From assembly GCA_026414265.1 (NCBI GenBank), contig JAOAJI010000004.1:1-44842 (forward strand): DNA of 44,842 bases. Direction: 5' to 3'. Every line of letters begins with the position of its first letter. The first letter of the stretch is position 1. This stretch comes from Microcaldota archaeon (GTDB lineage Archaea; Micrarchaeota; Micrarchaeia; Anstonellales; SKW190). The notes under the pieces are model-generated. The model was not told the origin of the DNA and ran no database searches. It worked only from the letters and a program-made list of their open reading frames with translations. Of this stretch, positions 32,504-35,169 are shown in pieces. The position numbers were made by a program, and so were the translations under genes.

Positions 32504-33343
32504 ATGGAATATAATAAATACAAATATAGTCAAATACCTAAAAGACAAAAGAAATTAAGAGCAACTCCAATGACTGAGCAAAATATACCTAATTATTCTT
32601 CACTCTTACATAAAATCTTTGTCTTATCAAAAACAGCAAATAGCTTAACAGATAAAGACATTGCACATGACATAAAAAACGCTCTAGGAATTATAAGCAT
32701 AGCCCTTGGCTCATTCGAAGAAAGAGCTCAAAAAGCTGGCAAGCATAAACAACGTGTTTATTGGCATGTGAATAAGTTTTTAGATGTGATAGAAAAGAGA
32801 CTTGAGTTATATTTGACTAATAAAAGCCTTTTTTCCCCAAATCATCAAGTTAAATTCAATTTTTTGAGCATACTTGAATATGTCACTTCATATCTTGAAT
32901 TTTTGAAACATGCATTTTTTATTGATGAAACATCTTTGGTTTATAAAATAAAAAGAAACTTTACTTCTAATAAATATATTTTGATTGACGAATATGATTT
33001 GATATTTTCAGTATTGAACAACTTGATCAAAAACTCTCTTCGAGAAATCACGTCTTTGAATTCAGATACAGATAATAATAAAATTATTTCAATTTTAATT
33101 GATGTGTCAGAAAAATCTATTATTATTATTGTAAGTGACACTGGCAAAGGTTTTCCTTCGCAAGTATTAGAGTCTTTTAAAAAAGATCAGAGATACACTA
33201 CATTTCAAGAAAACACAGAAAATCACGGTTTTGGACTACTAAATGTAAAGCGTTCTGTAGAAAGAGCAAAAGGCACGGTTAACATTTATAATGACAACGA
33301 AAATCACGCATGTGTGGTTATCGAGTTACCTCTTGTTGAATAA
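32504..33343 (+). CDS. Orphan histidine-kinase-like protein (HisKA + HATPase)
   Basis: H-box DIAHDIKNALGII; N-box NNLIKNSLREI; VSDTGKGFPSQV; HGFGLLNVKRSVERAKGTV. No recognised TM, PAS or receiver. Confidence 0.85.
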   Translation: MEYNKYKYSQIPKRQKKLRATPMTEQNIPNYSSLLHKIFVLSKTANSLTDKDIAHDIKNALGIISIALGSFEERAQKAGKHKQRVYWHVNKFLDVIEKRLELYLTNKSLFSPNHQVKFNFLSILEYVTSYLEFLKHAFFIDETSLVYKIKRNFTSNKYILIDEYDLIFSVLNNLIKNSLREITSLNSDTDNNKIISILIDVSEKSIIIIVSDTGKGFPSQVLESFKKDQRYTTFQENTENHGFGLLNVKRSVERAKGTVNIYNDNENHACVVIELPLVE

Positions 33344-33853
33344 AAAATATTTCTCATATTTGTTCAAGAATAAATCTCCATTAAGCACATACAATTTGCC
33401 TTCTTTTAACTTAACTTTAAAATTCTGCCTCGAAAACAATAACTCTTCTTTTTGATTTGACTTTTCTATTATAATAATATTTTTTGTCAACCCAGTTCTC
33501 TTCGATAATATTTTTTGTGTATGACCAACAGCATCATAAATCCCTGCAAAATAGTTTGCAGAATAATCGTTATCGTATTTGAATCGCTCTAGTTCGTTTT
33601 CAACAATTTTTTCAAAAAAAGTTCTTAACTTAGTATGATAGAAGTAAGCAGTTTGTCCATCATCGTGAATAATTATTTTATCTGAGGAAGTCAGGTTTGA
33701 TTTTATTACTAATTCTATAAAGAATTGAACTCTTTCCTTATCCGCTGTTACACCAATTCCATCATGTGACCTTAACTTTTTCCAAAATCCTATAATATAA
33801 GATAGGTTATGCGTTAAACGCAGTTCCTTCAAGGTAGTATGTTCATCAGCCAT
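33326..33853 (-). CDS. Stand-alone protein with degenerate LAGLIDADG-like motifs
   Basis: Two motif-like helices, SYIIGFWKKLRSHDGIGV and ANYFAGIYDAVGHT, separated by about 80 aa. TTGAT-TGT-ATG start context. Confidence 0.55.
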   Translation of the reverse strand: MADEHTTLKELRLTHNLSYIIGFWKKLRSHDGIGVTADKERVQFFIELVIKSNLTSSDKIIIHDDGQTAYFYHTKLRTFFEKIVENELERFKYDNDYSANYFAGIYDAVGHTQKILSKRTGLTKNIIIIEKSNQKEELLFSRQNFKVKLKEGKLYVLNGDLFLNKYEKYFLFNKR

Positions 33854-33902
33854 ACAATCAATTTGTTGTTCATAGAGTTAAAAAACATGATGGTAAATAT
33901 TA

Positions 33903-33919
33903 TTTTAGAATTTCTAAAA
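33903..33919. promoter_or_regulatory. 17-bp palindrome copy 1 (half-site at 33923-33930)
   Basis: TTTTAGAATTTCTAAAA, perfect inverted repeat around one central base; TTTTAGAA recurs at +20 bp. Confidence 0.8.
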
Positions 33920-34207
33920 GTATTTTAGAAAAATATTAAATTTTTTTAATCCAAAAAGTAACCAACTAATTATTTTAATTTTAATATCATATAAGTAAAC
34001 CACTAATTTATTTTCAAACAGTTAATGTTTACATCGGTTTATCATATCAATATGAATACGCATTTTTTGATTGCACAATATTGCTTACGCAAAAAAAATG
34101 CCAACAAGCAGCAAATTTTGTTGAAATGGTTTATTTATATGGGGTGTAAAATATATACAATCAACAATGCCTGCAATATTTCAATATATAATTTTATGGA
34201 AAAATTA

Positions 34208-34224
34208 TTTTAGAATTTCTAAAA
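34208..34224. promoter_or_regulatory. 17-bp palindrome copy 2
   Basis: Exact TTTTAGAATTTCTAAAA, followed by tttttatac. Confidence 0.8.
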
Positions 34225-34265
34225 GGTTTTTATACACATGTTTAGTATAAATTAAACTAAAATAT

Positions 34266-34300
34266 TTTTGGAATTTCTAAATTTTTTTTGGAATTTTATG
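34266..34300. promoter_or_regulatory. Degenerate palindrome copy 3 and half-site at +20
   Basis: TTTTGGAATTTCTAAAT at 34266-34282; TTTTGGAATTTTATG from 34286. Confidence 0.65.
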
Positions 34301-34323
34301 TTGTTCATATGGAACTAAAACTA

Positions 34324-34340
34324 TTTTAGAATTTCTAAAA
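34324..34340. promoter_or_regulatory. 17-bp palindrome copy 4
   Basis: Exact TTTTAGAATTTCTAAAA, about 77 bp upstream of the GGDEF ORF; degenerate TTTTGACTAAAA follows at +21. Confidence 0.8.
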
Positions 34341-34416
34341 ATATTTTTGACTAAAAAAACTAAAACGCATTGATTTAAAAACATTATTTTTATTTAATTA
34401 TAACAACGGTGGGTGT

Positions 34417-35169
34417 ATGCACACACAACGTAGACGTTATTTTCAGATAAAAAAATTTCATGAAAACTACCAAAAGTCATCTAGTTTAAAAAAATCATTG
34501 TTGAGAGTTTTCAATCCTTTCTTATATCGTGATACAAAATTGTTCTACCCTATAATCGAAGAACTCGAAAGACTAAGGACCAATTTGAAATTGGATCCTA
34601 AGTTTGCCAGGTTAAAAGTACATAGTCCTTGTATACTCGATGAAATTTTTGATAACGAAAAAGCAAGATACGTAGGTAGAAGATCAATGGATATTATGCC
34701 AGAGCACTCATCGCTAATAATGCTTGACATTGACGACTTCAAAAGGATAAATTCTTTACTTACTCATCAAGGAGGAGACATTGTATTGGAGGAATTAATT
34801 AAATTAATAAGAAGTGTATTAAGAGACACTGACATGATTATAAGATACGGTGGAGAAGAGTTCATGGTTTATTTACCATATACTCCTGTACAGGATGCTA
34901 CACACATAGCAGAAAGAATAAGGATCAATGTCGAACAGAAATTACTTGAAAAAACATATTCACGATTCTTAAGCCAAAAAGAAACATGGACAAAAGAAAT
35001 CCAAAAGTTGGATCAATTATCTGCTATTACCGTAACTCTTGGTGTTGCTGAAATCTATAAATATGAATATCTTTTTGAGCTAATTAGAGACCTGTCAGGT
35101 GCAGTCATTACTGGTAAATTAAATGGCAAAAATACAATATGTGTTCCAGAAAGGTTTATTGATAAATGA
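34417..35169 (+). CDS. GGDEF-domain protein, putative diguanylate cyclase
   Basis: SLIMLDIDDFKRINSLLTHQGGDIVLEELIKLIRSVLRDTDMIIRYGGEEFMVYLPYT...AITVTLGVAEI; intact GGEEF; RDTD placed five residues before it. Confidence 0.93.
   Translation: MHTQRRRYFQIKKFHENYQKSSSLKKSLLRVFNPFLYRDTKLFYPIIEELERLRTNLKLDPKFARLKVHSPCILDEIFDNEKARYVGRRSMDIMPEHSSLIMLDIDDFKRINSLLTHQGGDIVLEELIKLIRSVLRDTDMIIRYGGEEFMVYLPYTPVQDATHIAERIRINVEQKLLEKTYSRFLSQKETWTKEIQKLDQLSAITVTLGVAEIYKYEYLFELIRDLSGAVITGKLNGKNTICVPERFIDK

Follow-up and report, generated by a model that had tools for sequence, protein, structure and literature searches.

The window analyzed here is a stretch of 44,842 nucleotides from the genome of a Microcaldota archaeon (assembly GCA_026414265.1, contig JAOAJI010000004.1), hereafter abbreviated as G000. 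It contains a 563-bp spacer without any open reading frame of 70 aa or more, which is flanked by a minus-strand gene (33326-33853) and a plus-strand gene for a GGDEF-domain protein (34417-35169). The GC content of this spacer is 20.6% (79% AT) versus approximately 33% in its surroundings (L180), so that it has the AT-rich intergenic character of archaeal origins of the ORB type, namely those built around origin recognition boxes. Both the GGDEF-domain protein and a HATPase_c kinase-like protein that also flanks the region (32504-33343; no HisKA domain detected) look unusual for an archaeon. That the genome is archaeal is nevertheless clear from its Cdc6_C match and from an eEF1A-type factor and GatD, and its size suggests a DPANN member.

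The initial annotation of the spacer described a 17-bp palindrome, TTTTAGAATTTCTAAAA, in three exact copies and a degenerate one, with extra half-sites starting 20 bp after two of them and distances of 50 and 77 bp to the two flanking ORFs; all these elements are confirmed in the sequence (table 1), and the three right-hand copies follow each other at intervals of exactly 58 bp. The genome-wide scan proposed at the same time has now been run: no further match to the 17-mer with up to one mismatch was found in the 1,179,173 bp of G000, nor does the exact 13-bp core TTAGAAnTTCTAA have any copy outside the spacer in this 1.18-Mb genome. To the question, also raised by the annotation, of whether the motif merely follows base composition, a clear answer comes from 2000 shuffles that preserve the dinucleotides of this very spacer, with 0.0000 exact cores expected versus 3 observed; AT-richness is thus ruled out as their source.

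Table 1. Position of the features of the spacer and of the adjacent LAGLIDADG-fold gene, in window coordinates
Feature	Position	Strand	Basis or remark
LAGLIDADG-fold protein, 175 aa; weak candidate palindrome binder	33326..33853	-	fold; present in 59/59 genomes searched of the order
Predicted chromosomal replication origin, 563-bp non-coding region	33854..34416	.	no ORF >=70 aa; ORB-like array and bracketing palindromes
Palindrome copy 1, TTTTAGAATTTCTAAAA, left of ORB array	33903..33919	.	sequence match
Third half-site TTTTAGAA, starting 20 bp after start of copy 1	33923..33930	+	same arrangement in G017
Weak ORB-like element TGGTTACTTTTTGGATTA, 6.5 bits	33947..33964	-	assigned chiefly by position
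ORB-like element GGTTTACTTATATGATAT, 22.7 bits	33984..34001	-	matrix scan
Head-to-head dyad GTAAACC-N34-GGTTTAC, 1 mismatch	33995..34042	.	sole match in genome
ORB-like element GGTTTATCATATCAATAT, 10.0 bits	34036..34053	+	exactly 52 bp after the 33984 element
ORB-like element GGTTTATTTATATGGGGT, 16.3 bits	34128..34145	+	92 bp after the 34036 element; same distance in G017 and G007
Palindrome copy 2, right of ORB array	34208..34224	.	exact match
Degenerate palindrome copy, 2 mismatches	34266..34282	.	mismatch search; 58 bp after copy 2
Extra half-site TTTTGGAA, starting 20 bp after start of degenerate copy	34286..34293	+	sequence
Palindrome copy 3, exact	34324..34340	.	exact match; 58 bp after degenerate copy

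Between the palindromes of the window we found a second repeat, with consensus GGTTTACTnTTArGGTAT, for which a position-weight matrix was built from 31 elements, including two from the window. All four ORB-like elements of the spacer (33947, 33984, 34036 and 34128) sit between the palindromes at 33903 and 34208, and three of the four are degenerate (6.5, 10.0 and 16.3 bits). When spacers of related genomes are placed side by side, most of them contain this second repeat, in the form of AGTAAACC in one orientation and of GGTTTACTTATA or GGTTTACTGTTA in the other. The matrix scan identifies one array per locus, with nearly fixed spacing: two elements lie about 31 bp apart, an inverted pair is separated by 52 bp start to start, and a further element or pair is found 104 (sometimes 92) bp off. 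Spacings of 30-33, 52-53, 103-104 (or 92) and 29-33 bp are found in families f5, f7, f9 and f11, a set that covers G006, G008, G010, G012, G017, G020, G022, G040, G043, G057, G062, G063 and G064. The arrangement is present with weaker elements in G000 (family f1), and related layouts are seen in f8 (G007, G029 and G038) and f4 (G011, G024 and G027), the elements of f4 being weaker. Repeated polar motifs with an inverted pair, by which origins of the ORB type are recognized, are therefore present across families. In each case the array sits in an AT-rich non-coding gap, and the neighboring genes differ between genomes.

The inverted pair can be searched for directly as the dyad GTAAACC-N34-GGTTTAC, which with up to one mismatch is matched in 33 of 84 genomes, some of the one-mismatch matches, like those of the reversed control, being due to chance. 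The central 34 bp of these dyads (for instance L395, L396 and L398) contain a CAAAAACAC/GTGTTTTTG-like string that is common to several predicted origins of one genus; in Sulfolobus, the place between inverted ORBs, namely ORB2 and ORB3, is occupied by the ucm motif (PMC12141716). The palindrome can be followed in a similar way. Its extended pattern, comprising the third half-site and allowing up to three mismatches, is matched in 29 of the 84 genomes, often several times per contig, and the reversed control gave fewer matches. In G017, which belongs to the same order, the palindrome flanks a non-coding stretch of some 400 bp on either side. The recurrence of palindromes at origin arrays across the order supports the initial annotation also with respect to conservation, and sequence comparison indicates that the layout of array plus flanking palindromes recurs across most of the order.

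Separate searches with the palindrome and ORB patterns converged within about 2 kb in ten genomes. Because many of the loci were found through the palindrome, the clean test of this association is given by 13 arrays outside f4 that were located by ORB or dyad patterns alone: the surrounding 35.6 kb contain 7 exact cores versus 0.017 expected, and 11 cores with up to one mismatch versus 0.45 expected. Around 24 predicted origins, many of them found through the palindrome itself, the number of copies (up to one mismatch) falls with distance from the array, from 18 in the first 500 bp to 10, 12, 9 and 6 in the successive intervals of 0.5-1, 1-2, 2-3 and 3-7 kb. Inter-ORF gaps, which account for about 16% of the DNA, hold 47 of these 55 copies, and the motif is thus far from being equally frequent inside genes, as the annotation had considered it might be. 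The intergenic copies are distributed among divergent (15), tandem (23) and convergent (9) spacers roughly according to the share of DNA of each class, and in G000, G017, G029 and G043 the ORB core has palindromes on either side, 80-530 bp away. At three f4 origins, in which the ORB array is retained, no exact palindrome was found. At least 120 contigs from unrelated, mostly AT-rich taxa contain the exact 17-mer, and those listed show no ORB elements; given this lack of association, they serve as a negative control. The palindromes are, in sum, origin-associated, mostly intergenic and without promoter bias. Two exact matches in G036 and one in G017 (C34:6747) fall inside coding sequence and look like chance occurrences; they were set aside. 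A ScpB-like gene identified by eye in G017 (C34; L179:6233-6691), about 6 kb from the predicted origin, overlaps the adenylate-kinase-like gene that holds a chance exact palindrome.

Evidence that the array marks an origin comes from base composition in G040, a relative with ten contigs that was read almost in full (1.46 Mb scanned). On contig C3 its GC skew is mostly negative until about 290 kb, where it turns positive; on C5 it is mostly positive, and on C8 it is positive until about 620 kb and negative beyond, a pattern that fits one origin and one terminus. Only once in the scanned sequence do three GTAAACC elements cluster within 800 bp, namely at 287.5 kb of C3, and the only palindromes of at least 20 bits are at 288.0 and 291.9 kb of the same contig, where the skew changes sign. 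The minimum of the cumulative skew has a flat bottom and is reached at 268 kb, at a distance of 19 kb from the array; the curve is almost as low at 290 kb, so that the agreement is good to about 20 kb. At this resolution a compositional extreme coincides with the array in G040 only; the 52-kb contig of G000 has a local skew minimum at 32-34 kb, which is unclear, the contig being too short to decide.

A Cdc6_C domain was matched once per genome in all ten genomes checked; in three of them it is on a contig different from that of the predicted origin (C83 vs. C61 in G000, C72 vs. C34 in G017, C5 vs. C3 in G040). The adjacency of orc1/cdc6 that is typical, if not universal, of archaeal origins is thus not seen here, and G014-type relatives with the array likewise have the gene on another contig. 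Moreover, GGTTTACTnTTArGGTAT differs from the common ORB motif published for archaea, as judged by eye (PMC4164010). We conclude that the predicted origin has a novel origin-recognition-box sequence and is unlinked to the single orc1/cdc6 gene. Taking together the ORB-like array, the bracketing palindromes, the recurrence of this arrangement across the order and the skew turn in G040, we hold with high confidence that the window spacer is a chromosomal replication origin, and it is very probably the single place where copying of the chromosome starts.

At such an origin, the single Orc1/Cdc6 encoded elsewhere would bind the GGTTTACT elements as origin recognition boxes and load MCM at the head-to-head pair. 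The 52-bp inverted pair would be the likely loading platform by analogy with oriC1 of Sulfolobus, where Orc1-1 binds inverted ORBs and directs MCM to the stretch between them (PMC12141716). Less certainly, a second, dimeric protein would bind the flanking palindromes, and could either hold or segregate the replicated origins in a centromere-like manner or tune initiation. That the palindrome is a specific binding site for a dimeric protein is well supported, and this part of the initial annotation stands; its further implication, an operator acting on the promoters of the LAGLIDADG-like and GGDEF genes, does not find support. A centromere-like or initiation-control site fits better than an operator, because the palindromes lie outside the array and reach past neighboring genes, and origin segregation or initiation control is the likely function of the dimeric protein.

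That the palindromes constitute a centromere resembling parS or SegB sites, at which a dimeric protein separates or holds the new origins, is a reading to which we give slightly less than an even chance; this reading and the initiation-control role discussed below concern the palindromes only, and either agrees with the spacer being the origin. Several sites occur within 3 kb on both sides of the origin, mostly in intergenic position and irrespective of promoters, and the palindrome has one central base, as do the SegB sites of Sulfolobus, TCTAGASTCTAGA, which cluster near segAB, additional ones being located around oriC1 and oriC3 (PMC12284271). Palindromic sites clustered near an origin or near segAB are also a trait of SegAB centromeres. 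However, the ParB_N domain was found in none of eight genomes, 10 of 14 control genomes being positive; ParA-like matches are patchy (5 of 8 genomes, with none in G017, G010 and G063); the core differs from that of SegB sites, which are mostly intragenic; and f4 origins yielded no exact sites. No segAB was identified, nor was any conserved SegA/ParA found. In G043 only, two ParA/MinD-like genes (L361 and L364; G043:C24:12471-14277) are situated at about 8-10 kb from the predicted origin.

The alternative that the palindromes bind an initiation regulator or architectural protein, working with Orc1/Cdc6 on firing or unwinding in a role analogous to that of UBP in Sulfolobus, accommodates their bracketing of the ORB core, and the ucm-binding UBP shows that a second protein can be required at archaeal origins (PMC12141716). 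Nevertheless, a large number of sites are 1-5 kb away from the array, past intervening genes, and ucm is located between ORBs, which the palindromes are not; we regard such a role as rather unlikely. The operator reading, according to which the sites control transcription of the LAGLIDADG and GGDEF genes, derives from their location in a divergent intergenic region of the window, at 50 and 77 bp from the start codons. Yet across relatives the palindrome tracks the origin array and neither gene, the two genes are absent or occur at other places, and the GGDEF gene shows no conservation at origins; with the intergenic classes occupied near their share of DNA, this reading is largely refuted and we regard it as improbable.

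Recombination or cassette boundaries of a mobile array, similar to dif or attC sites, were suggested by G063 (C13; L230:9527-11441), in which one palindrome follows each of three consecutive small genes, and by the variation of flanking genes between genomes. A dif site has two arms around a 6-bp center, unlike the three half-sites with 1-bp and 3-bp spacers found here; moreover, the copies concentrate at the origin instead of in repeated modules, and those of G000 and G017 lie inside one spacer without genes in between. On account of site structure and origin clustering this idea was rejected as very improbable. Chance AT-rich sequence, even in a spacer of 79% AT, has next to no probability given the shuffles, the uniqueness in G000 and the conservation across the order.

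With respect to the possible binder, the initial annotation had pointed to the protein encoded at 33326-33853 next to the spacer; its LAGLIDADG fold is borne out, whereas as a binder it stays a candidate. The structural model, of high confidence (pLDDT 94.3), which in Foldseek matches E-DreI, I-DmoI and the N-terminal domain of WhiA, indicates that the protein has a LAGLIDADG fold; the protein itself has no Pfam match, and the LAGLIDADG_3 profile matched 9 of 20 family members (best E 0.0032). It is a single-domain member of an unnamed family, homologues of which were found in all 59 genomes of the order that were searched. LAGLIDADG-fold dimers bind long pseudo-palindromes. In B. subtilis, loss of WhiA affects chromosome segregation (PMC10714963). 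In nearly all relatives checked, the LAGLIDADG gene and the origin are on different contigs, and f4, at whose origins no exact palindrome was found, has the protein as well; G053:C30, examined for adjacency of this gene and an origin outside G000, has two ORB matches 603 bp apart and no dyad. The protein may thus be considered a weak candidate for binding the palindromes. The more specific proposal that the latter are the first centromere-like element recognized in this archaeal lineage, flanking the origin and conserved across families, and segregating origins through a binder that is neither ParB nor SegB and possibly is the LAGLIDADG-fold protein, is tentative and somewhat against the balance of probability.

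Overall, the feature is real and conserved, and is best described as the predicted replication origin of an archaeon, belonging to a new sequence class and accompanied by origin-associated palindromes, and not as an ordinary operator. Our literature search found no paper mapping replication origins in such uncultivated archaea, and common origin predictors rely on a neighboring cdc6 gene (PMC4164010). Here, sequence gives access to the origin, its repeat class and its geometry across an order, even where such a neighbor is lacking, which would allow growth rates to be estimated from read depth and the changes in Orc1/Cdc6 specificity to be tested. The flanking palindromes render archaeal origin segregation, so far studied mainly through SegAB in Sulfolobales, testable where ParB was not found and ParA is patchy. 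Array and palindromes together make it possible to map, in a form open to testing, the replication origins and perhaps the centromeres of microbes that have never been grown.

Compared with known archaeal origins such as Sulfolobus oriC1 and Pyrococcus oriC, the predicted origin is similarly AT-rich and intergenic, with polar repeats of which two are inverted, a turn in GC skew (in G040) and orc1/cdc6 in the genome. It differs in its repeat, GGTTTACTnTTArGGTAT instead of TCCA[CG]T[TG]GAAA[TC][GA]AAGGGGT (PMC4164010), in the initiator gene not being adjacent, in the near-fixed 31/52/104-bp geometry and in the extra bracketing palindromes. Bacterial parS/ParB systems share the presence of several palindromic sites near the replication origin, but their sequence is different and ParB_N proteins were found in 0/8 genomes here. 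The ucm/UBP system of Sulfolobus is comparable in having a second conserved motif beside the ORBs (PMC12141716), although ucm lies between ORB2 and ORB3 whereas the palindromes lie beyond the array, at distances of up to several kb. The SegB sites of Sulfolobales have a core of AGA-S-TCT and not TTAGAAnTTCTAA, and the sites described here are mostly intergenic, within 3 kb of the origin and not accompanied by a conserved SegA/ParA; with their one-central-base palindrome, TAGA/TCTA-type half-sites and partial location around an origin (PMC12284271), the SegB sites are the nearest known analogue of the palindromes.
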